Positions 20,581 through 35,383 of a DNA stretch of 46,646 bases are shown piece after piece. Source of the stretch: Thermoanaerobaculia bacterium (lineage in GTDB: Bacteria > Acidobacteriota > Thermoanaerobaculia > Thermoanaerobaculales > Sulfomarinibacteraceae); NCBI GenBank assembly GCA_027067575.1, contig JAMOVQ010000069.1:1-46646 (forward strand), written 5' to 3'. The position numbers were made by a program, and so were the translations under genes. Below the pieces are notes generated by a model that did no database searches, was not told the origin of the DNA, and saw only the letters and a program-made list of their open reading frames with translations. Positions within the stretch are counted from its first letter, which is position 1, and each line of letters begins with the position of its first letter.

Positions 20581-22155
20581 ATGAACCCTCGCACAGTGGC
20601 CCTCGTCGCGGCCCTCGCGGCTTCCATCCCCTCCGCCGCGGCTGTGTACGACGTGGGTCCGGGCCAGCCGTACACCGCCATCGGCGAGGTGCCGTGGGAG
20701 TCGCTGGGGCCGGGGGACGAGGTCCGGATTCACTGGCGGAGTGAGCCATACCGGGAGAAGTGGGTGATCTGCCGCCGGGGCACCGAGGCCGAACCGATCG
20801 TGGTCCGGGGCGTCCCGAGCTCCTCCGGGGAACGGCCCGTCGTCTCGGGAGACGGTGCCACCACACGGCGCGCCCTCGACTTCTGGAACGAGGAGCGCGG
20901 GCTGCTCAAGATCGGGGGGGCCAGCGTTCCAGCGGACACCCTCCCCGCATGGATCGTCGTCGAGGGGATCGAGTTCCGCTCGGCCCGGCCCGCCTACGCC
21001 TTCACCGGGGACGACGGCTCGTCACGGACCTACGCATCCAACGCCGCCGCGATCTACGTCGAGAAGGCTCAGCACCTCGTCATCCGGGACTGCGTCCTGA
21101 CGGACTCGGGGAACGGGCTGTTCATCGGCGCGTACTCCGGCCAGACGCAGGAGATCCTGATCCAGGCCAACCGGATCGAGGGCAACGGGATCGAGGGCAG
21201 CTACTACGAGCACAACACCTACACGTCGGCCCGGGGCATCATCTACGAGCTCAACCTGCTGGGGCCGCTCCGCGACGGCTGCGGCGGGAACAACCTCAAA
21301 GACCGGTCGGCCGGTCTCGTGGTGCGGTGCAACTGGATCGAGGGTGGCAACCGCCAGCTCGACCTCGTGGACGCCGAGGACTCCGACGCCGTGGCCGCCG
21401 ATCCCCGCTACCACGAGACGTTCGTCTGGGGCAACGTCCTCATCGAGCGGGCCGACGAGGGGAACTCCCAGATCGTCCACTACGGAGGCGACAGCGGCGA
21501 CACCTCGATCTACCGCAAGGGGACGCTGTACTTCTTCCACAACACGGTGATCTCCCGGAGGGCCGGCAACACCACCCTCCTTCGCCTGTCCACCAACGAC
21601 GAGCACGCAGACATCCGGAACACCGTCGTCCGGACCACGGTCTCGGGGCCCCGCCTGGCGCTGCTGGCATCCAATGGGACGGCCCTCCTGACACACTGCT
21701 GGCTTCCCACGGGCTGGGTGACGAGCCACGACGCATTCTCCGGAACGCTGACCGACGACGCCACCTCGATCTCCGGCAACGACCCGGGGTTCGCCGACGA
21801 AGGCGGCGGCGACTACCGTCCCGGCGCCGGTTCGCCGCTCGTGGACGCCGGAGGACCGCTCCCGCCCGCAGCCCTCCCCACCCAGGCCCCCGTCTTCGAG
21901 TACGTTCCCAACCTGGGCTGGCGCAACCGCCCGTTCGACGGCGTGCCGGACACCGGGGCCTTCGAGGCGGGCTCCCCTCCGTGCGGCGACACCGACGGCG
22001 ACGGCCACGTCACCCCTGCCGACCTCGCGGCATGGCTCCGGTGGCGGTTCCCGGGAGCCGTTCCCGCAGGTGAGCTCGACTGCGACGGCTCCGGCAGCGA
22101 CGACGCGCCCGACCTCGCGTGGATCCTCCCGGCAGCGTGGGGCCTCCCCCGCTGA
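20581..22155 (+). CDS. Secreted right-handed parallel beta-helix protein with dockerin-like C-terminus
   Basis: 524 residues from ATG 20581. A signal peptide ends at about residue 22 (SIPSAAA). Residues about 100-400 have the repeated strand pattern of parallel beta-helix carbohydrate-active proteins (AIYVEKAQHLVIRDCVL, NGLFIGAYSGQTQEILI, LYFFHNTVISR, ADIRNTVVR). A DPGFADEGGGDYRPGAGSP motif and VDAGGP...PDTGAFE, both typical of such proteins, close the helix. From residue about 465 comes a doublet of calcium-loop sequences, DTDGDGHVTPAD and a weaker DCDGSGSDDAPD, each with a helix, like a dockerin type I pair. The substrate (polysaccharide or other) is not deducible. It is followed by another secreted gene in the same direction. 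No strong ribosome binding site was seen. Confidence 0.75.
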   Translation: MNPRTVALVAALAASIPSAAAVYDVGPGQPYTAIGEVPWESLGPGDEVRIHWRSEPYREKWVICRRGTEAEPIVVRGVPSSSGERPVVSGDGATTRRALDFWNEERGLLKIGGASVPADTLPAWIVVEGIEFRSARPAYAFTGDDGSSRTYASNAAAIYVEKAQHLVIRDCVLTDSGNGLFIGAYSGQTQEILIQANRIEGNGIEGSYYEHNTYTSARGIIYELNLLGPLRDGCGGNNLKDRSAGLVVRCNWIEGGNRQLDLVDAEDSDAVAADPRYHETFVWGNVLIERADEGNSQIVHYGGDSGDTSIYRKGTLYFFHNTVISRRAGNTTLLRLSTNDEHADIRNTVVRTTVSGPRLALLASNGTALLTHCWLPTGWVTSHDAFSGTLTDDATSISGNDPGFADEGGGDYRPGAGSPLVDAGGPLPPAALPTQAPVFEYVPNLGWRNRPFDGVPDTGAFEAGSPPCGDTDGDGHVTPADLAAWLRWRFPGAVPAGELDCDGSGSDDAPDLAWILPAAWGLPR

Positions 22156-22318
22156 TCAGAGCCGCTCCACCGGACCGCCCGGACATGGTGTTTCAACGGA
22201 AACACCGGACCGTGCCCACGGTACGGACAACGTCTTTGACGAAACGTTGACAGGTCCGGGCGGACGACCGCTCCCGATCATTGGTATGATGGCCTCAACA
22301 ATTCCCAAGGAGGCTTCC

Positions 22319-24919
22319 GTGAATCTGAGCCACCTGCCATCACAAGCCAAGAGATCGTCAGGTATCGCCGGGTTGACCGTGTTGACCTGCGTGGTGCTGG
22401 CCTTCCCGCTGCTCCGTTCGGCCCGGGCCGACTTCCGGTGGGAGAACCGGCTCCCCATCGGCCCCCCCCTGACGAGCGTCATCGCCTTCGCGGAGGACGA
22501 CGTGTGGGTCGCGGGGCAGCTGGGCTCGGTCCTCCACTGGGACGGAACGGTGTGGGACACCCTGTGGGGAGCCCGGTCCCTCGGGGACGACGACATCACC
22601 GGGGTCTGGGGCAGCTCGAGCTCCGACATGTGGTTCTGCACCGCTTCCGGGAACGTGTTCCACTGGGACGGCAGCTCGTGGAGCGCCGACTCCATTGGAA
22701 CCGGACTCCGCGGAATCTGGGGCAGCTCGTCGAGCAGCGTGTGGGTGGTGGGCAACAGCGGGACGATCCAGCACTGGGACGGTTCGAGCTGGTCGAGCCA
22801 GAGCTCCGGAACCTCTGAAACGCTCTACGGAATCTGGGGCACATCGGCCGCGTCCGTCTGGGCCGTCGGCGGGAACGGGACCATCCTCGCATGGAACGGC
22901 CTCGCCTGGATCTCCCTGACATCCGGTACCACTGCGACACTCCGGGCGGTCTCGGGAAGCTCCGCCACCGATCTCTGGGCCGTCGGCGCGAGCGGCACGG
23001 CGCTCCACTCGACGGACGGCATCTCCTGGTCGAGCGAGCCCACCGGCGAGACGCCGGCCCTGTACGGCGTCGCCGCCCTGGCCTCGGACACGGTCTACGC
23101 CGTGGGGGCGTACGGGCGGATCTACCTGTGGGACGGTTCGGACTGGTCCCGGATGACCTCCCCCGTCGCCCAGTCGCTCTCCGGCATCGCGGCCGACGCG
23201 TCGGGTTCCGGACGGTGCTGGGCCGCGGGGTACTACGGCACCATCGTCACGCTTGAGGACGGTGCGTGGAGCGAACTCTCCTCCGGAGAGATGCCTTCGT
23301 TGCGGGACGTCTCCATGCTCGACGCCCACTCGGGGTTCGCCGTCGGCACCGGCGGCGCCATCTACTCCCGGAGCGAAGGCCGCTGGGAGGCGAAGGAGAG
23401 CGGGACGACCGAGTCGTTGTTCGGCGTCTGGTACCCGGCGGCGGACCTCGCGTTCGCCGTGGGAACGGGCGGCACGATCCTCCGGTGGGACGGTTCGGAG
23501 TGGACCGCCGACACGTCGGGAACCACCGAGACCCTCAATGCGATCCACGGCTGGGCGTCCGGTGAGGCCGTGGTGGTGGGTGTCGGTCCGACCCTTCTCC
23601 GGTACGACGGCTCGTCCTGGTCCTCTGGCACTGCGCCGACAAGCCTGATCGGCAACCCGACCGACGTCTGGGGCCCGGACCCGGACACACTGTTCGTCGT
23701 CTCGGACCAGGGCGAGGTGGCCACGTGGAATGGGAGCTCCTGGTCGGTCACGACCCCGACGGTCCAGATCCTGAACGCCGTCTGGGGCCGGACCGAGGAC
23801 GACGTCTTCGCCGCGGGGGATGGCGGGATCGTGCTCCACTGGGACGGCTCGTCGTGGGTGGACATCTCGGACCCGACGGTCACCACGGAGCGCCGTGGGC
23901 TGGGAGGCAACGCCGTGGCCCTGCTCGTGGTCGACGTCCACGGGAAGATGCAGCGTCTGACGATGATGGGAGGCTGGGAGCCACCGTTCGACCTCTGCGA
24001 TCCCGGAACGCTCCAGGCCGTGGGATCCGGAGGACCGTTCTTCTGGTTCGTCGGCCAGTACGGAGCGGTGATCCGGTACGGCCCGCCGGCCATCGACGCG
24101 GAGCCATCGGGCACGGTCGAAGGCGAGACCGGAACCATCGTCGTGCGCCTGAGCAGCCCACGCACCTCCACGACCACCGTCGACTACCAGACCGCCGACG
24201 GGACCGCCACCGAGGCCTCCGACTACACAGGGGACAACGGGACCGTCACGTTCGCTCCAGGAGAGACGGTGGCCACCGTGGCGGTGGCCACGCTGGACGA
24301 TTCGAGCGAGGAACCGGACGAGACCATGGTCGTCCTGCTCGGCAACTCCTCCGGCCCAGTGATCGGTGACGGCGTGGCCACGCTGACCATCGAGGACGAC
24401 GGCGACCTCCCATCCGAGCTCTCGGTCGCGAGCGTTCTGGCACCCGAGGCTGCCGGGGCCGTGGCGGTGACCGTAACCATCGCCCCCCCCAGCGGCTACG
24501 CTGTGGGGTTCCACATGGAGAGCGCCCAGGGTACCGCGGGCGACGGCCTCGATTTCCAGGGTCGGAGCATCGACATCGAGGTCCCCCCGGGAACCACGAC
24601 GGTCACGAGGAACTTTGGGATCATCGACGATCTGTGGGAGGAACCCGACGAGACGTTCACCGTGAGCCTCTCGTCCGCGTCCCACGCGACTATCGCCGCT
24701 GGAACGGGCACCGTGACGATCGAGGACGACGACACCTGCGGGTGGGGCGGCGATCTGGACAGGGACTGCGACGACGAGGCCGACGACCTGGCGATCCTGA
24801 TCCGAAGGGTGGGTGACGCCGGTCTGGCGACCGACGGCGATCCGGACTGCGACGACGACCTTGCCGTCACGACCGGGGACGTGACCTGCCTGGTCGAGGA
24901 GATCTTCATCGGTCCCTGA
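22319..24919 (+). CDS. Secreted beta-propeller/Calx-beta protein with degenerate dockerin-like tail
   Basis: 866 residues from GTG 22319, chosen because AAGGAGG sits five bases upstream and the product then opens with a basic N-terminus and a signal peptide ending RSARA. Residues about 45-580 are about a dozen or more repeats of about 40 residues built on VWAVGxxGTIxxWDGSSW and SGTxxxLxGIWG, a pattern of secreted propellers. Two Calx-beta domains follow (about 588-695 and 700-805), each with EEPDET and a closing TLTIEDD or TVTIEDD. The tail (812-866) has two cysteine-containing acidic loops, DLDRDCDDEADD and DCDDDLAVTTGD, that resemble a dockerin pair with one loop degraded. Surface binding or adhesion is a reasonable guess. 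A GC-rich hairpin lies 12 bases past the stop. Confidence 0.8.
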   Translation: MNLSHLPSQAKRSSGIAGLTVLTCVVLAFPLLRSARADFRWENRLPIGPPLTSVIAFAEDDVWVAGQLGSVLHWDGTVWDTLWGARSLGDDDITGVWGSSSSDMWFCTASGNVFHWDGSSWSADSIGTGLRGIWGSSSSSVWVVGNSGTIQHWDGSSWSSQSSGTSETLYGIWGTSAASVWAVGGNGTILAWNGLAWISLTSGTTATLRAVSGSSATDLWAVGASGTALHSTDGISWSSEPTGETPALYGVAALASDTVYAVGAYGRIYLWDGSDWSRMTSPVAQSLSGIAADASGSGRCWAAGYYGTIVTLEDGAWSELSSGEMPSLRDVSMLDAHSGFAVGTGGAIYSRSEGRWEAKESGTTESLFGVWYPAADLAFAVGTGGTILRWDGSEWTADTSGTTETLNAIHGWASGEAVVVGVGPTLLRYDGSSWSSGTAPTSLIGNPTDVWGPDPDTLFVVSDQGEVATWNGSSWSVTTPTVQILNAVWGRTEDDVFAAGDGGIVLHWDGSSWVDISDPTVTTERRGLGGNAVALLVVDVHGKMQRLTMMGGWEPPFDLCDPGTLQAVGSGGPFFWFVGQYGAVIRYGPPAIDAEPSGTVEGETGTIVVRLSSPRTSTTTVDYQTADGTATEASDYTGDNGTVTFAPGETVATVAVATLDDSSEEPDETMVVLLGNSSGPVIGDGVATLTIEDDGDLPSELSVASVLAPEAAGAVAVTVTIAPPSGYAVGFHMESAQGTAGDGLDFQGRSIDIEVPPGTTTVTRNFGIIDDLWEEPDETFTVSLSSASHATIAAGTGTVTIEDDDTCGWGGDLDRDCDDEADDLAILIRRVGDAGLATDGDPDCDDDLAVTTGDVTCLVEEIFIGP

Positions 24920-26625: not shown

Positions 26626-27216
26626 TCAACGGTCCGGTCTCCGGTCGAGGTCGGCCAGTGGCCGCTCCAGGCAGATGGTGGCGACCCGGTCCGGACGCTG
26701 CCGCAGGAACCTCCTCGCACCACGGTCCCCACGAAGCCCGAGGAGCTCCGGAAGAACCTCCCGGGAGAACCATGCCGGCGCCTGGAGCGGTGCGCCGGGC
26801 CAGGTGACGGCGGCCATGGGCAGCGCGGCGGCCTCCGCCGCACGGGGGAGGGCCTCGAGGACCGCGGGCTCCAGCGTGGGGAGGTCCGCGGGAACGACGA
26901 CGACCCCGGAGAGGCCGGAATGGCGGCCCAGGAGGTGCGCCACGCCGGACGCGATGCTCGACCCCATCCCCCGCCGCCACCGCTCGTTCTCCACGATCTC
27001 CACCCCCGGCCCTCCGGCGATCGGGCGGAGCCGTTCGCGGTGCGACCCGAGCACTGCGACCACGGGACGGAATCCCGCGGCGAGGACCACCCGGAGCGTC
27101 CTGGCGAGGAGCGGCTCGCCGCCCACAACCTCCAGCAGCTTGGCCCCCCCGAACCGCCGCGAGGCCCCGGCGGCGGGAACCACAGCGCAGCGCACCACCG
27201 AATCGCCCCGGCTCAC
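26626..27216 (-). CDS. MocA-like nucleotidyltransferase (molybdenum cofactor cytidylyltransferase family)
   Basis: 196 residues from GTG 27216. That start gives a GTGA overlap with the upstream gene and has GGGAGG five bases ahead; a GTG six bases earlier is an alternative. The NTP-binding N-terminus reads VVPAAGASRRFGGAKLL, followed by the family's GMGSSIASGV and by VVPADLPTL, where many members have ADQP. The C-terminal region LGLRGDRGARRFL is typical (GD.G.R). MocA and relatives add CMP (or GMP) to molybdopterin to make the dinucleotide cofactor; NTP and acceptor here are inferred. It is the last gene of the ECF-type cassette, so it may modify the imported compound. No xanthine dehydrogenase-type enzyme is in the window. 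Confidence 0.8.
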   Translation of the reverse strand: MSRGDSVVRCAVVPAAGASRRFGGAKLLEVVGGEPLLARTLRVVLAAGFRPVVAVLGSHRERLRPIAGGPGVEIVENERWRRGMGSSIASGVAHLLGRHSGLSGVVVVPADLPTLEPAVLEALPRAAEAAALPMAAVTWPGAPLQAPAWFSREVLPELLGLRGDRGARRFLRQRPDRVATICLERPLADLDRRPDR

Positions 27217-28361
27217 CGCCACCTCCCGCCGCCACGGCCCACGGCGGTCCTCAGCGCCTCGAGCACCACCGGCACCGCCCGCTCCGGATCGGCAAGGCTC
27301 CCGAGATCGACCACCACCGCATCGCCTCCCCCGATCCTGGCCAGGAGCGCCGGGACCAGCGATCGCCGGACGACCAGGAGCGCCGCCGCCGGACGGGCCG
27401 TGGCGAGCACTGAGCGGATCGCCGGCATGTGGCCGCCGTCCCTGAGCTCCAGCGGCCCGATCTCGTCGGCCACGACGACGCCCGTTGCGGGAACGGACCG
27501 GATCGCCCTCCGGGCGAGGGCAAACCCCCGGGGGTCGAACCGGTATGGCGTTCCGGCTTCCCCCGAACCGGTACCGGCGAACACCGCCAGTGGCGCCTCC
27601 TCACCCGACGCGACATCCCGGACCCTGAACCCGCTCCGGACTCCCCCGCGCTCCACGGCCGGCTGCACCACGCCCCCGACGGGCACACCCTCCGCCCGCA
27701 GCGCGGCGGCGACCCGGTCCGCAACGGCCGTCTTGCCCGACCCTCCGGGCCCGGTCAATACCACGAACGGGACGACCGCAGGCAGGGCGCGCTCGCCTCG
27801 GATCGCCCCCGCGTGGCCCCGCAGCGCCGCGGCGGCCGCCGCCTCGTCGGCGAGCCGCGCCGTGTGCGCCAGCAGCACCTCGCCGAGCCGGGGCAGTCGC
27901 CGCACGGCACGCCACCGTCCGCCGCTCCGCTCGACGAGCGCCCACCAGGCGTCCCGGCCAGCGGCAGCCAGCACCGGAAACGTGTTGGCCGCCAGCCCGA
28001 AGCCCATGACCACCGGCCCGGTCGAACCGCCACGTATCCGGGCCGATCCAAGCGACCGGATGGCCATGGCGATCCCGCAACCCGCCAGCACGAGCAACAC
28101 CACCAGCCGCACCGCCACCGTGGCTCCCGCGACGAACCCGGCCCGGATACCTCCGGACGCGCCCACCGCCAGACCGGCCGGCACCGCGGCCCCAAGGACG
28201 GCCAGGACGGCGAACGGCCGGAGCACCGCAGTCAACGCCTCCGGAGCCCGGATCCGCGCAACGAGCACGACGGCCGCAGCACCGATCGCCTCCGGCACCC
28301 CCCGCCCAAGGAGCGCCGTGGCAGCCCCGAGAGCCAGGACGGCAAGCGCCACGGCCTTCAC
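27213..28361 (-). CDS. Fusion of EcfT-like membrane domain and THEP1-family NTPase
   Basis: 382 residues from GTG 28361, chosen because it makes a GTGA overlap with the upstream gene. Residues about 1-195 are membrane spans (five or six), ending in helices with AAAAALRGHAG, which resembles the Ala-Arg-Gly coupling motif of ECF T components. From about residue 195 to the end is a P-loop domain of the THEP1/NTPase_1 family: Walker A GPGGSGKTAVADRV, VGGVVQPAVERGGVRSGF, and Walker B VVVADEIGPLEL with the hallmark DEIGxxEL. THEP1 proteins hydrolyse NTPs in vitro, with no firm physiological role. Joining it to a transporter T component is unusual. The previous gene is the small membrane protein, the next is mocA-like; the four genes read as one operon. 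Confidence 0.72.
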   Translation of the reverse strand: MKAVALAVLALGAATALLGRGVPEAIGAAAVVLVARIRAPEALTAVLRPFAVLAVLGAAVPAGLAVGASGGIRAGFVAGATVAVRLVVLLVLAGCGIAMAIRSLGSARIRGGSTGPVVMGFGLAANTFPVLAAAGRDAWWALVERSGGRWRAVRRLPRLGEVLLAHTARLADEAAAAAALRGHAGAIRGERALPAVVPFVVLTGPGGSGKTAVADRVAAALRAEGVPVGGVVQPAVERGGVRSGFRVRDVASGEEAPLAVFAGTGSGEAGTPYRFDPRGFALARRAIRSVPATGVVVADEIGPLELRDGGHMPAIRSVLATARPAAALLVVRRSLVPALLARIGGGDAVVVDLGSLADPERAVPVVLEALRTAVGRGGGRWR

Positions 28362-28942
28362 ACCGTCCTCCCGAGCCGCACGAGCACCCGCCCTGCGATC
28401 CGCCACGCGCCCCTTCCGGCCAGCCCGCCGGCCACCCCGGTCGCCAGCACCACCGCCCCGAACAGCGCCGCCGCTCCACCAGGCACCCCCATCGACCGCG
28501 CCAGGGAATCACCCCACACAGTCAGAGCCTCCGCCGTCTCCCGCCCCGCCACGATCCGCAGGGTCACGACGGCCTGGACCGGAGCGGCCACGAACGCCGC
28601 CGCGCCCCCGAGCAGCGCAGCGGCGGCACGGTTCCCGGCCAGACCGAAGGCAGCCTCAACGGCAAGGGCTTCGAGAAGAATCGCCACCACGGGCCCGGGA
28701 TGGACGGCACCCGTCGCCCCGGCCCGGAGGAGCGCCGCCACGGCGCCCGCGGCAAGCACCACACCGGGCGTCGGCTGGAGGCGGCGCACGGTCACGGCGC
28801 ACACGAGCCCGGCGGCGGCGAGCAGGAGCCCGGAGAGGGGGACACCCGCTGCCTTGAGCGCCACCCCGGCCGTGGCCTCCGCGGCTCCCCACAACGTGCC
28901 GAAGAGCACGGCGTGGGACCAGGCGGAAACAGGAAACTTCAC
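28358..28942 (-). CDS. Small integral membrane protein, likely substrate-binding (S) component of the ECF-type transporter
   Basis: 194 residues from GTG 28942, overlapping the ATPase stop by four bases (GTGA), with GGAGGGGCC ahead. About five to six hydrophobic segments, alanine/glycine-rich, starting with HAVLFGTLWGAAEATAG and including GAVHPGPVVAILLEALAVEA. No S-component family (ThiT, RibU, BioY and so on) was recognised, so the assignment is from size, topology and position between ATPase and T-like genes. The substrate is unknown; the mocA-like neighbour suggests a molybdopterin precursor, nucleotide-like compound or oxyanion, as inference only. Confidence 0.6.
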   Translation of the reverse strand: MKFPVSAWSHAVLFGTLWGAAEATAGVALKAAGVPLSGLLLAAAGLVCAVTVRRLQPTPGVVLAAGAVAALLRAGATGAVHPGPVVAILLEALAVEAAFGLAGNRAAAALLGGAAAFVAAPVQAVVTLRIVAGRETAEALTVWGDSLARSMGVPGGAAALFGAVVLATGVAGGLAGRGAWRIAGRVLVRLGRTV

Positions 28943-30255
28943 GGCCCCTCCACGATCCGTCCATCCCGGATCGCCAGCGTGCGGTGCGCTGCGGCGCCGA
29001 GCTCCTCCCTGTGGGTCAGGATGAGGCAGGCACGGCCCCGGGCGGCCCGCCGGTGGAGAAGGTCGACGAGCCGGAGGAGGTTCCCCGGATCGAGTCCCTG
29101 CGCCGGCTCGTCGAGGATCGTGACGGCGGGGCGGAGGAGATCGAGCACGGCGTGGACGAGCCGGCGGGCCTCGCCCCGTGACAGGGTCCACGGGGCCCGG
29201 GCCGCAAGGGCGGCGAGGCCGTGCCGCCGGAGCACCCTCGCAACCGCCTCCTCCCCCGCCCCGGTCGAGGCCGCCTCACGAGCGACGGTCGCCTCGAACA
29301 ACTGGAGGGGGTCCGAGGGAAGCATCAGCGCCACCCGTCCAGCCCTCCGTACCGTCCCGGCCGCGGGACGTTCCAGACCGGCCAGGACGCGCGCCAGCAC
29401 GCTCTTGCCCGACCCGTTCGCCCCGGACAGCACCACGACCTCTCCCCGCCGGATCGCAAACGAACCGTCCCTGACGAGACACCGTCTCCCCCGCTCGAGC
29501 CTCAGGCCCACCGCCCTGAGAACGGACTCCCGGCCAGGAGGCTCCGGCGGCGCAGGAAACGCCGGAGGGCCGGGCGGCGCGGCCGGGACGGCCCTGCCGC
29601 CATCCAGGATCACCCACCGCCCGACGGCCTCCCTGAGCCGCCACCCGGCCTGCTCCGCCAGGACGATGCACCCACCTTCCCGGGCAGCGCCGTCGAGGAG
29701 CTCCCCCAGGGCGGCGACGCCCGCCGCATCCAGGTGCGCCGTCGGTTCATCCAGCAACACCGGAACGCCGGGCGCCCCGGCGAGCCCCAGCGCGAGGGCC
29801 ACGCGCTGCCGCTCCCCCGAGGACAGCGTCGCCGTGGAGCGGTCGAGCAGCGGCCCGAGACCGAACGCCGCCACCGCGTCGCACTCCCCGGTCCGACGGA
29901 GAACGGTCACCGCCTCCAACTCGGCGCGCGGCGTCCCGAGGAAGAGCTGGGCCTCCGGCCGATCCAGCACCGTCGCCAGCAGCGGGGCACGCTGGGCCGG
30001 ATCGAGTCCTTCGACCGGCTCGCCGTCAAGCAGCACCGAACCCGTCATACGTGCGGGCCGGTGCCACGGAACGAGCCCGGAGATCGCCGCCAGGAGCGTG
30101 GACTTCCCGGCACCAGATGCGCCGGCGACGCCAACGACCTCTCCCGTGCCGGCCGACAGGTCGACGCCGTCGAGCACCGGCCAAATCCGGTTCCCGGGAA
30201 CCACTCCGAGCCCCCGCGTCTCCACCCTGGCGACCCGCCTTCCCACCACCGTCAA
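28939..30255 (-). CDS. Double ABC ATPase of an ECF/CbiO-type transporter (EcfA-EcfA fusion)
   Basis: About 438 residues; the start is uncertain (TTG 30255 or GTG 30249). Two nucleotide-binding domains are fused. The first has Walker A GASGAGKST, signature LSSGERQ and Walker B VPVLLDEPTAHLD. The expected H-loop histidine is not evident (VLAEQAGW), so this half may be catalytically weak. The second, after a proline-rich linker (PPGPPAFPAPPEPPG), has Walker A GANGSGKS, LSRGEAR, TILDEPAQGLD and LTHREE with its histidine. Both halves look like the cobalt/ECF ATPase group rather than exporter or MacB types. It powers the membrane components encoded immediately downstream and is the first gene of the cassette. 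Confidence 0.82.
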   Translation of the reverse strand: MTVVGRRVARVETRGLGVVPGNRIWPVLDGVDLSAGTGEVVGVAGASGAGKSTLLAAISGLVPWHRPARMTGSVLLDGEPVEGLDPAQRAPLLATVLDRPEAQLFLGTPRAELEAVTVLRRTGECDAVAAFGLGPLLDRSTATLSSGERQRVALALGLAGAPGVPVLLDEPTAHLDAAGVAALGELLDGAAREGGCIVLAEQAGWRLREAVGRWVILDGGRAVPAAPPGPPAFPAPPEPPGRESVLRAVGLRLERGRRCLVRDGSFAIRRGEVVVLSGANGSGKSVLARVLAGLERPAAGTVRRAGRVALMLPSDPLQLFEATVAREAASTGAGEEAVARVLRRHGLAALAARAPWTLSRGEARRLVHAVLDLLRPAVTILDEPAQGLDPGNLLRLVDLLHRRAARGRACLILTHREELGAAAHRTLAIRDGRIVEGP

Positions 30256-30631: not shown

Positions 30632-31720
30632 TCAGCCGTGCTTCGCGGCGAACGCCTCCATGAACCGGCAGAGCGCCTCGACGCCCTCGGGTTCCATGGC
30701 GTTGTAGATCGACGCGCGGCAGCCGCCGACGGAGCGGTGCCCCTTGAGCCCGACGAGACCGGCCTCCTTCGCCTCGGCGACGAACCGCGCCTCGAGCTCC
30801 TCGCTCGGGAGGCGGAACACGACGTTCATCACCGAGCGGCTGGCCTTCTCCACCGGACAGCTGTAGAACCCGGGGTGCCCATCGATGACGCCGTAGAGCC
30901 GGTCCGCCTTGGCCCGGTTGCGGCGCTCCATCGCCTCCAGCCCGCCCTGCGCCTTCACCCACGCCAGGGTGTTGCGGAGCATGTAGATCGGAAAGGTCGG
31001 CGGCGTGTTGTAGAGGGAGTCCTTCTCCACGTGGGTGGCGTACTTCAGGAGCGTCGGCAGCTCCTGGTTCGCCTGCTCCAGCCACGACTTCCTCACGATC
31101 ACCACCGTGACCCCGGAGGGGCCGAGGTTCTTCTGTGCCCCGGCGTAGATCAGGCTGAACCGGTTGGCGTCGAACGGGCGCCACAGGAGGTCCGAGGACA
31201 TGTCCCCCACCAGCGGGACGTCACCCGTGTCGGGGAACTCGTGCCACTGGGTCCCGGCGATGGTGTTGTTCGAGGTGATGTGGACGTACGCCGCGGAGGG
31301 GTCGAGGTCGAGCTCGTCCTGGCCGGGGATCCGCGTGAACCTCCCGTCGGACTCGGTGGTGGCCGCGACCCGCCCCGAGGCGACGATCTTCGCCTCCTTG
31401 AGCGCCTTCTTCGACCATGCGCCGGTGATCACGTAGTCAGCCGAGCCGCCCTCGGGGATGAAGTTCATCGGGATCATGGCGAACTGGAGCGACGCCCCGC
31501 CCTGCAGGAACAGGACGTGGTGGTCGTCGTCCAGCCCGAGCAGCTCGGCCATGAGGTCCATCGCCTCGTGGTGGAGCGCGTCGTACTCCTTGGAGCGGTG
31601 GGAGATCTCCATGACGGACATCCCCGTCCCCTCCCACTCCGGGAGGTCCGCCTTCGCCCGTGCGATCGCCTCGGCCGGCAGGGTCGCCGGTCCCGCGTAG
31701 AAGTTCCAGACCTTGCTCAT
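30632..31720 (-). CDS. serC: Phosphoserine aminotransferase
   Basis: 362 residues, the normal length. The N-terminus has VWNFYAGPATLP (the FNAGPA-type family start), followed by GMSVMEISHRSKEYDAL, then LFLQGGASLQFAMIPMNF. The PLP lysine lies in YAGAQKNLGPSGV (the AQKN motif). TPPTFPIYML and GLKGHRSVGGCRASIYNA are the usual C-terminal substrate-phosphate residues (HRSVGG.RAS.YN). The enzyme transaminates 3-phosphohydroxypyruvate with glutamate to phosphoserine, and serves pyridoxal synthesis in some bacteria. It is the last gene of a DUF1015-serA-serC operon with gaps of 12 and 16 bases. No serB was found nearby. Confidence 0.95.
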   Translation of the reverse strand: MSKVWNFYAGPATLPAEAIARAKADLPEWEGTGMSVMEISHRSKEYDALHHEAMDLMAELLGLDDDHHVLFLQGGASLQFAMIPMNFIPEGGSADYVITGAWSKKALKEAKIVASGRVAATTESDGRFTRIPGQDELDLDPSAAYVHITSNNTIAGTQWHEFPDTGDVPLVGDMSSDLLWRPFDANRFSLIYAGAQKNLGPSGVTVVIVRKSWLEQANQELPTLLKYATHVEKDSLYNTPPTFPIYMLRNTLAWVKAQGGLEAMERRNRAKADRLYGVIDGHPGFYSCPVEKASRSVMNVVFRLPSEELEARFVAEAKEAGLVGLKGHRSVGGCRASIYNAMEPEGVEALCRFMEAFAAKHG

Positions 31721-31736
31721 ACCGTCCTCCCCGGCC

Positions 31737-32618
31737 TCAGGCCGTCCGCTTCGTGAAGTCCTCGAGAAGCTCGACGACCACGTCGCCGATCCGCCCCATG
31801 TTCTCCTTCGTCGAGGCCCCGATGTGGGGCGTCATGATCACGTTGGGCGCCGACAGGATCGGGCTCGTCGGTTCCGGCGGATCGGAGTACCAGACGTCCG
31901 TGGCGTAGGCCCGGACCTTGCCCGACTCCAGCGCCGCGGCCATGTCCTCCTCCACGACGCACTGCCCGCGGGCGGTGTTGACCACCACCACGCCGTCCTT
32001 CATCTTCGCGATGCTCTCCGAGTCGATCATGCCGCGGGTCTTCTCGGTCAGCGGCACGTGGAGCGAGATGAAGTCCGCCCGGGCCAGCAGCTCGTCGAAC
32101 GGCACGAGCTCGGCGATCTCGTGGCTCGTGATGATCGGGTCGAAGGCGATGACGGTCATGCCGAACGCCGCCGCACGGCGGGCGAGCTCGGTACCGATGT
32201 TGCCGGCGCCGATCAGGCCCAGCGTCTTGCCGTAGAGCTCCGTCCGCTTCATCTCCTTCTTGGCCCAGCGCCCCTCCTTCATCGACTGGTGGGCCTCCAC
32301 GAGCCGCGTGGGCACGGCGACCATCAGGGCGAACGCCATCTCGGCCACGGCGATGGCAGAGGCCGAGGCCGTGTTGTGGACCGCGATTCCCTTCTCCTTC
32401 GCGTAGCCGAGATCGATGTTGTCGAGCCCGACGCCCCCGCGGATGATCAGCTTGAGGTTGGGCGCCGAGTCGATCCATTCCTTCGTGCACTTGGTCTTGG
32501 AGCGCACGAGGACCACGTCGGCCTCGGCGAGCCGCGCCGGGTCGTCGGTCACCTCGCCGAACCGCTCCAGCCGTTTCGGCAGCTTGTCGTCGAACGCATC
32601 GGAGATCAGGATCACCAT
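31737..32618 (-). CDS. serA: D-3-phosphoglycerate dehydrogenase, short form without ACT domain
   Basis: 293 residues. The catalytic-domain part has KLIIRGGVGLDNID, followed by VHNTASASAIAVAE. The NAD-binding Rossmann part has LGLIGAGNIGTELARRA and a downstream acidic residue in FDPI. The active-site region includes the arginine in NTARGQCV, and the catalytic histidine is in PHIGASTKENM. The sequence ends right after the catalytic domain; regulatory ACT and ASB domains found in E. coli-type SerA are missing, so serine feedback by those domains is not expected. It makes 3-phosphohydroxypyruvate from 3-phosphoglycerate. The next gene, serC, uses that product. Ribosome site AGGGGAGG lies ahead of the ATG at 32618. 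Confidence 0.92.
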   Translation of the reverse strand: MVILISDAFDDKLPKRLERFGEVTDDPARLAEADVVLVRSKTKCTKEWIDSAPNLKLIIRGGVGLDNIDLGYAKEKGIAVHNTASASAIAVAEMAFALMVAVPTRLVEAHQSMKEGRWAKKEMKRTELYGKTLGLIGAGNIGTELARRAAAFGMTVIAFDPIITSHEIAELVPFDELLARADFISLHVPLTEKTRGMIDSESIAKMKDGVVVVNTARGQCVVEEDMAAALESGKVRAYATDVWYSDPPEPTSPILSAPNVIMTPHIGASTKENMGRIGDVVVELLEDFTKRTA

Positions 32619-32630
32619 GGTCGCCTCCCC

Positions 32631-33872
32631 TCAGTCCTCGAGCGGCCGGACGATCAGCCCGGACCGCAGCTTCGGTTCGAACCAGGTCGACTTGGGGGGC
32701 ATCACCTTCCCCGCGTCGGCCACGGCGAACAGCTGGTCGATCGATGTGGGGTGCATGGCGAACGCCACGGCCCACCTTCCGGAATCCACGAGCCGCTCCA
32801 GTTCGGCCGTCCCGCGGATCCCCCCGACGAAGTCGATCCGCTCGTCCGACCGGGGATCGCCGATCCCCAGCACCGGCGCGAGCAGGTTGTCCTGGAGGAT
32901 CGCCACGTCGAGGCTCCGGACCGGGTCGTCCGCCGGGTACGTGCCGTCCTTCGCGCGGAGCCGGTACCACCGGCCGCCGAGATACATGCCGAACGTCCGC
33001 GGCTCCCGGGGCTTCGGCTCGGAGGCCGCCTCCACGTCGAACCGCTCCCGGACCCGGTCGAGGAACGCCGCCTCGTCCATCCCCGCCAGGTCCCGGACCA
33101 CGCGGTTGTAGTCCATGATCATCATCTGGTCGTGGGGGAAAATCACGGAGAGGAAGAAGTTGTACGGCTCCTCGCCCGTGTGGGCGGGGTTCGCCTCCCG
33201 CCGCTTCGCCCGGACCCGGACGGCCGCCGCCGACCGGTGGTGCCCGTCGGCCACGTAGAGCACGGGGACGCCGGCGAACGCCTCGCGGAGCCGGTCCCGG
33301 TCCGCCGGGTCGTCCACGACCCACAGCGTGTGCACCACGCCGTCCGGCGCCGTGAAGCCGTACACCGGCTCGCCCGCGGTCAGCTCGGCGACGAGGGCGT
33401 CGATCTCCGGCCGGGCCCGGTAGGTCAGGAAGACCGGACCGGTGTTGGCGTTCAACGCCTCCACGTGGCGGGTCCGGTCGTCCTCCTTGGCCCGGCGGGT
33501 GTGCTCGTGCTTCTTGATCAGGTCGGCCTCGTACTCGTCCACCGAGGCGCCGGCGACCACGCCGGTCTGCACGTGGCCCCCCATCCGCTGCCGGTACAGG
33601 TACAGCGCCGGCCGGCCCTCCCGGATCAGCACCCCGTCGGCGATCAGCCGCCGGAGGTTCTCCGCACCCTTCTCGTACACCTCCGGCGCGTACGGGTCGG
33701 TCCCGGGCGGGAGGTCGATCTCCGGCTTGACCACGTGGAGGAACGAGAGCGGGTTGCCGCCGGCCAGCTCCCGGGCCTCCTCGGTGTTGATCACGTCGTA
33801 GGGGGGACTCGCCACCCGCTCGGCGAGGTCGGGGCGCGGACGCCACGCTCGAAACGGCTCGATCCGGGCCAT
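32631..33872 (-). CDS. DUF1015 family protein linked to serine biosynthesis
   Basis: 413 residues from ATG 33872, with AAGGAG ten bases ahead. The opening IEPFRAWRP...VASPPYDVI is the DUF1015 hallmark, followed by NPLSFLHVVKPEID and a central ADGHHRSAAA motif. The C-terminal part has DFVGG and FAMHPTSIDQLFAVADAG, then MPPKSTWFEPKLRSGLI. The family has no firmly assigned reaction; it is repeatedly found beside serA and serC, and the same order is seen here. That supports a role in serine or glycerate metabolism, as inference. It is the first gene of the operon, divergent from ahcY with a 179-base shared upstream region. Confidence 0.88.
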   Translation of the reverse strand: MARIEPFRAWRPRPDLAERVASPPYDVINTEEARELAGGNPLSFLHVVKPEIDLPPGTDPYAPEVYEKGAENLRRLIADGVLIREGRPALYLYRQRMGGHVQTGVVAGASVDEYEADLIKKHEHTRRAKEDDRTRHVEALNANTGPVFLTYRARPEIDALVAELTAGEPVYGFTAPDGVVHTLWVVDDPADRDRLREAFAGVPVLYVADGHHRSAAAVRVRAKRREANPAHTGEEPYNFFLSVIFPHDQMMIMDYNRVVRDLAGMDEAAFLDRVRERFDVEAASEPKPREPRTFGMYLGGRWYRLRAKDGTYPADDPVRSLDVAILQDNLLAPVLGIGDPRSDERIDFVGGIRGTAELERLVDSGRWAVAFAMHPTSIDQLFAVADAGKVMPPKSTWFEPKLRSGLIVRPLED

Positions 33873-33928
33873 GGGCGCACTCCTTCGCTTGTGGGATCGG
33901 GCGGCCGGGCCACCCGCCCGGAATCTAG

Positions 33929-35383
<1,455 letters not shown>

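Follow-up and report, generated by a model that had tools for sequence, protein, structure and literature searches.

A minus-strand operon joining an EcfT-like membrane domain to a THEP1 NTPase in Thermoanaerobaculia, and its possible role in molybdenum cofactor uptake

The window analysed here, a stretch of 46,646 nucleotides (contig JAMOVQ010000069.1, assembly GCA_027067575.1) from a Thermoanaerobaculia bacterium of the phylum Acidobacteriota, carries on its minus strand, from 30255 to 26626, an operon of four overlapping genes. These encode a double ATP-binding cassette (ABC) ATPase (A1A2), a small membrane protein (S), a membrane domain fused to a THEP1-family NTPase (T-THEP1) and a MocA-like nucleotidyltransferase, and all four genes described in an earlier sequence-only reading of this DNA are present. 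That reading had them all overlapping by GTGA, which holds at the A1A2/S (28942-28939) and S/T-THEP1 (28361-28358) junctions; the T-THEP1/MocA-like junction is a 10-nt overlap from the called start, and yields GTGA only with the alternative in-frame GTG start at 27216.

The T-THEP1 gene (27213-28361) encodes 382 residues, of which approximately residues 197-370 (27252-27773) constitute the NTPase. This domain matches NTPase_1 (PF03266) at an E-value of 7e-23 over residues 200-345 (81.7 bits, cut-off 23.9) and the human THEP1 structure 2i3b in Foldseek (E 3.6e-7). Its Walker A motif GPGGSGKT (residues 204-211, 27729-27752; G204, G209 and K210 invariant in 34 sequences) and Walker B motif DEIGPLEL (residues 299-306, 27444-27467; D299, E300, G302 and E305 invariant) are intact, confirming the earlier assignment of a THEP1-family NTPase fused to a T component. 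It is the sole clear full-length NTPase_1 match in the window genome, two other places giving short matches of approximately 20-25 bits. In domain, fold and Walker motifs it agrees with the THEP1/NTPase_1 proteins of solved structure (1ye8 and human 2i3b), but these are soluble, consist of one domain and have no known function, whereas the window THEP1 would form the cytoplasmic part of a transporter and is tied to molybdenum/tungsten (Mo/W)-pterin genes. From Aquifex to humans, the in vivo role of THEP1 is not known (PMC1079890).

The N-terminal region of the fusion (residues 1-190, 27792-28361) resembles EcfT/CbiQ, the T component of energy-coupling factor (ECF) transporters. The Pfam CbiQ model matched neither the window T domain nor anything in the whole window genome and, as S also belongs to no family (see below), profile-profile comparison was used, with 25 aligned CbiQ sequences from the window's phylum as reference. 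The T domains of the window and of its nearest relative (genome G286) matched this alignment with an hhalign probability of 85% over 188 of 192 columns, rising to 97% once the T protein of a further genome (G245) was added, the latter being a clear CbiQ homologue (1.6e-17) whose gene has those for a double ATPase and an unfused THEP1 as neighbours. The EcfT coupling motif aligns to RLADEAAAAAALRGH (ADE..AA.RG) in the window-type T. In the AlphaFold model of the fusion (predicted local distance difference test, pLDDT, 83), there are approximately four membrane helices and then two long helices of the coupling type, after which THEP1 stands where canonical EcfT continues into its last membrane helix. 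The domain-database check proposed in the sequence-only reading is thus answered in part: NTPase_1 is found directly and EcfT by profile-profile comparison, but Pfam CbiQ fails on the single protein. From these alignments, an EcfT-like identity is well supported for the window-type T and weaker for the T of relatives in which S, T and THEP1 form one chain (10%; 59% for mixed T).

The second gene (28358-28942; 194 residues) encodes a predicted six-helix membrane protein homologous to the N-terminal domain of these S-T-THEP1 fusions, and is proposed to be the substrate-binding (S) component. A Pfam scan assigned it to no family and NCBIfam gave a chance-level match alone (E 0.1); a profile of 64 fused S domains recovered it at E 6e-21, shuffled sequences reaching 1.7 or worse, and likewise recovered the S protein of another operon (E 8e-8). 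In the predicted model of a fused S-T-THEP1 protein (pLDDT 88), the S domain has six to seven helices and is followed by a short T domain and the THEP1 fold; whole-chain Foldseek confirms the THEP1 part alone, the S/T matches being low-confidence noise from major facilitator superfamily and ABC proteins.

The first gene (28939-30255, TTG start) encodes 438 residues with two ABC_tran stretches, and its two ABC ATPase domains, as in ECF transporters, are conserved in G286 and, in another gene order, in G245; against CbiO and ECF ATPase models A1A2 scores under the model cut-offs. The absence of the H-loop histidine from its first half, noticed previously, is real: glutamine takes its place (AEQ where G245 has AEH), and the Q-loop glutamine is replaced too, by aspartate (VLDRPEAQLF). 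Motif alignment shows both changes to be common to G286 and not to G245, and the second half retains its H-loop histidine. Such a degenerate first half, conserved in the nearest relative, suggests asymmetric ATP sites. Together with the EcfT-like T found by profile, the paired ATPase domains bear out the description of the operon as an ECF-type cassette. Group I ECF transporters (CbiMNQO, NikMNQO, BioMNY) share with it the paired ABC ATPases, an EcfT-like T with coupling helices, a separate membrane protein of approximately six helices (in the window the proposed S) and the lack of a periplasmic binding protein in the operon; the window system differs from them in having THEP1 in place of the last membrane helix of T, a degenerate first ATPase half, and an S similar to no Pfam or NCBIfam family.

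The last gene (26626-27222; 198 residues) encodes an NTP_transf_3 protein (PF12804, E 3e-33) with nucleotide and metal motifs (PAAGASRRFGGAK and PADLP), sharing this domain and its active-site motifs with MocA and MobA, the molybdenum cofactor (Moco) cytidylyl- and guanylyltransferases. The best NCBIfam model is TIGR03310 MocA (92.1 bits, cut-off 186.45), the MobA model giving 30 bits, so that the earlier naming holds; as the score lies under the MocA equivalog cut-off, the protein is called MocA-like only. It also differs from MocA/MobA in its setting, being encoded together with a proposed importer while searches of the genome gave no MoaA, MoaC or MoeA.

G286 keeps the A1A2-S-T/THEP1 arrangement, the S and T/THEP1 proteins sharing 42-47% identity. 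The linkage that the sequence-only reading expected in relatives is therefore found for the ATPase (in G286, and rearranged in G245) but not for mocA: in G286 no mocA-like gene adjoins the operon, although in other genomes MobA/MocA-type genes are repeatedly found beside the family. Within the phylum, S, T and THEP1 also occur in one chain (G062, G254, G296) or as S-T plus THEP1 (G007). A search with an S-T alignment against 84,980 species genomes gave 417 relatives, from which 80 loci were kept (Acidobacteriota, Bacteroidota, Marinimicrobia, Ignavibacteria, Gemmatimonadota and others); a genome-contig search with P0003 alone found no relative. S-T-THEP1 is a single open frame of approximately 580 residues in 74 of the 80 loci. 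In contrast to group I ECF transporters, these widespread single chains have no nearby ABC ATPase, a match within approximately 6 kb being present at only 1 of 80 loci. Conservation of the ABC ATPase is confined to close relatives (G286 and, rearranged, G245), the widespread form being the single chain. No CbiQ protein was found in G007 and G062, carriers within the phylum sample, and a shared ECF module is thus probably absent from them too. The gene arrangement is beyond chance, being kept in G286 and with S-T-THEP1 recurring widely. An assembly or frame artefact was considered as the origin of the T-THEP1 fusion and rejected, since the same fusion occurs in G286 and, with S added, in those 74 loci, across many assemblies.

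Genes for molybdenum metabolism recur around the family. On the same strand, the fused gene is accompanied by genes for ModE-type regulators, TonB receptors, MobA-type enzymes and, directly upstream, DUF364/DUF4213 proteins, and genes for xanthine dehydrogenase (XDH), SsnA and YgfK or for enzymes of the dimethyl sulfoxide (DMSO) reductase family lie close to it. Listing neighbours across genomes, a check suggested in the sequence-only reading, gave Mo-related genes at 26 of 80 loci versus 3 of 39 control regions of the same genomes, DUF364 at 14/80 versus 0/39 and ModE at 8/80 versus 0/39 (p 0.002-0.003 for the Mo-related and DUF364 contrasts); the contrast is approximate, as the controls are shorter (397 kb versus 708 kb in total) and start mostly at contig ends, and the 80 loci are not phylogenetically independent. 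The type of nucleotidyltransferase tracks the enzyme, with MobA beside DMSO-reductase-family genes (L077, L085) and MocA beside XdhC/XDH (L081, L046). In L046 (56-8157) and L047, one operon contains MocA, the XDH large subunit, its FAD subunit, an S-like protein, DUF364, XdhC, THEP1 and a pyridoxal phosphate-dependent enzyme; S and THEP1 are present there with no T component or ABC ATPase seen, and both genomes have XDH and lack MoaC. Five standalone THEP1 genes also lie directly beside or very near genes for aldehyde ferredoxin oxidoreductase (AOR), a tungsto/molybdopterin enzyme (L036:5557-8312, L040:2670-6100, L042:3448-6154, L043:3209-5937, L044:5766-8234), which suggests that THEP1 acts with pterin metal enzymes in general. 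From the recurrent neighbours, the L046/L047 operon and the AOR-adjacent genes, THEP1, MobA/MocA and S-type proteins meet repeatedly around Mo/W-pterin enzymes. In L031 and L035, a standalone THEP1 gene lies a few kb from genes that by eye resemble hypA/hypB/hypF hydrogenase maturation and ArsA-like ATPase genes.

The distribution of Moco-dependent enzymes and Moco synthesis among carriers follows a related pattern. The window genome (G000; listed completeness 100%) encodes two intact XDH-family enzymes with Moco-binding and catalytic-glutamate motifs, one of which (L171:1505-4075, contig C66) scores above the curated cut-off of TIGR03311, selenium-dependent XDH, and a search of this genome found no MoaA, MoaC or MoeA. 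The L171 gene is preceded by one resembling, by eye, diaminopropionate ammonia-lyase. In the window order, the three carriers G000, G286 and G254 combine XDH (2, 2 and 4 matches) with the absence of MoaC and MoeA, MoaA having been searched in G000 and the other two being judged by MoaC and MoeA; G200 and G294, both without the system, encode XDH, MoaC and MoeA; and G078 lacks the system, XDH, MoaC and MoeA alike. Within the order, the system is thus present in exactly the three genomes with XDH and without MoaC. Among the 50 genomes of the 80 loci, MoaC is present in 21, MoeA in 23, both in 18 and neither in 24; MoaC is absent from 29, five of which keep MoeA. Maribellus luteus (L084), a carrier available in culture, retains both genes. 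At least nine of the 24 carriers with neither gene have XDH, SsnA/YgfK, a DMSO-reductase-family enzyme, MocA or XdhC beside the transporter (L070, L074, L075, L077, L081, L082, L085, L091, L092). Across the phylum, XDH without MoaC occurs in 24 of 297 genomes, and its association with carriage of the system (p 0.013 with 7 carriers; p 0.0002 with 9 carriers linked to S, a group enlarged once the data had been seen) is counted as supporting only, being uncorrected for phylogeny. Bin incompleteness alone was rejected as an explanation for the missing MoaC, as three carriers with a listed completeness of 96-100% lack it in parallel and, of the 29 carriers without MoaC, 24 are without MoeA as well.

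What is observed, namely the genes present, their homologies, the recurrence of the arrangement and its coincidence with Mo enzymes and with lost Moco synthesis, points, at a probability of roughly 0.55, to an ECF-type uptake system for Moco (Mo-molybdopterin) or a very close form, serving Moco salvage. The sequence-only reading had suggested import of a cofactor precursor, such as a molybdopterin-related compound, followed by nucleotidyl transfer. The neighbours and the loss of synthesis lend this support, but MoeA has been lost along with MoaC, so that the simplest substrate would be finished Moco and not a metal-free precursor. As we infer the substrate, the direction of import, the order of steps, the role of THEP1 and the energetics, Moco would enter, in Bacteroidota through a TonB receptor; S would bind the incoming cofactor, with the EcfT-like domain as membrane scaffold, and Moco would be moved by S-T toppling or conformational change, powered in the window lineage by the dedicated, partly degenerate double ABC ATPase acting on the T domain. 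THEP1, at the cytoplasmic end of T, may then receive or handle the cofactor in an NTP-dependent manner, much as MobB assists MobA, and hand it to MocA or MobA for addition of CMP or GMP. The window MocA-like enzyme would add CMP, giving molybdopterin cytosine dinucleotide for the two XDH-family enzymes of this genome.

Several points weigh against Moco uptake. Moco is oxygen-labile, and to our knowledge free extracellular Moco is not well documented. Moco-dependent enzymes without Moco synthesis characterize G000, G286 and G254 but not the 18 of 50 other carriers that keep both MoaC and MoeA, and the system therefore also occurs outside Moco auxotrophs; metagenome bins make up most of the genomes, the 50 carriers being without listed completeness, and 17 genomes of the phylum with XDH and without MoaC (e.g., G003, G124, G212, G228, G284) gave no THEP1 hit. 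The S domain has no match to solved S components in whole-chain Foldseek, and the window S lacks the K-S-x-S-P-S segment that fused S domains conserve, so that its substrate could differ in detail. No XDH, ModE, DUF364 or TonB receptor gene was seen adjoining the window operon.

Elsewhere, moreover, ModE, TonB receptors and DUF364 would be equally consistent with a system that takes up molybdate, tungstate or a chelated metal. An importer of molybdate, tungstate or a Mo chelate ("molybdophore"), in which TonB would serve the outer and S-T-THEP1 the inner membrane, DUF364 would process the chelator, ModE would regulate, and MobA/MocA would be linked only via the metal, is somewhat unlikely in our judgement. 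All three of these genes lie directly upstream in Bacteroidota, and carriers able to make their own Moco also favour it. On the basis of its structure and of its genomic context with transport of molybdate, tungstate and vanadium, DUF364 has been proposed to have pterins, metal chelates or siderophore-like chelators as its substrates (PMC2954201), which supports chelate import and also fits Moco uptake, without proving it. However, the metal would be useless without molybdopterin to G000, G286, G254 and the 24 of 50 carriers lacking MoaC and MoeA, and the partition within the window order follows the loss of Moco synthesis. The known molybdate/tungstate importers ModABC, WtpABC and TupABC are alike in molybdenum supply and in the ModE link of the relatives, but the window operon has neither a ModA-type binding protein nor a ModB-type permease.

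Import of metal-free molybdopterin or cyclic pyranopterin monophosphate, with the metal inserted by other proteins, would account for the five carriers with MoeA and without MoaC and for L124, whose operon contains MoeA and a MoCF-domain protein; it is unlikely, since MoeA has gone together with MoaC in most auxotrophs, the window genome included. ECF systems carry many vitamins, and XDH, SsnA and YgfK neighbours form purine catabolism clusters, so that import of an unrelated micronutrient or of a purine or nucleoside, with the Mo link arising only through XDH/SsnA purine catabolism, might also explain the differing putative substrate site of the window S; this appears improbable, as neighbours such as ModE, AOR and MobA alongside DMSO-reductase-family genes are unrelated to purines. 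Finally, a membrane-anchored Moco-maturation complex without import, in which S-T would anchor THEP1 and the nucleotidyltransferase, would suit the mostly ATPase-less fusions and the resemblance of THEP1 to MobB-type folds (weak, non-significant Foldseek matches to 4oyh and 1p9n), but is very improbable given the dedicated double ABC ATPases with S/T-type partners in the window lineage and G245, and would leave the loss of Moco synthesis unexplained.

Under Moco uptake, the S-T-THEP1 form without a nearby ABC ATPase raises the question of energy, and THEP1 may there also be the motor. It is possible, and we put it forward tentatively, that the S-T-THEP1 family is the first identified Moco importer, a single-chain ECF-like system that dropped its ABC ATPases and uses THEP1 as motor and/or receiver, with the window locus an intermediate form still having them. 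These ECF-like proteins place an unrelated NTPase where ABC ATPases normally couple. The earlier statement that no ECF system with a soluble NTPase in T is described agrees with the open-access literature (subscription papers and preprints being outside its scope), where no report of THEP1 in an ECF system, of the present architecture or of a Moco importer in bacteria was found. Caenorhabditis elegans takes up mature dietary Moco by a transport mechanism that is unknown (PMC9793310); mature Moco would come from outside in both cases, the worm being an animal system. If correct, the proposal would provide a candidate gene family for the crossing of membranes by Moco or molybdopterin, a question open even in animals that take up Moco, and would explain the life of bacteria that have molybdoenzymes but no Moco pathway. 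Whole bacterial lineages could then live as Moco auxotrophs, Moco cross-feeding would be predicted in communities, and THEP1, a conserved NTPase also present in humans, would gain its first functional context.

A riboswitch search of the window and 11 loci, the Moco motif included, found none. Upstream of the operon and on the same strand (30632-33950), genes for a class-V aminotransferase (SerC-like), a 2-hydroxyacid dehydrogenase (SerA-like) and a DUF1015 protein lie in a row, followed on the opposite strand by a gene for S-adenosylhomocysteine hydrolase (33941-35383). On the other side of the operon, positions 22070-24919 encode a large protein, predicted to be secreted, that has WDG-type propeller-like repeats, Calx-beta domains identified by Pfam and a C-terminus that by eye is dockerin-like.

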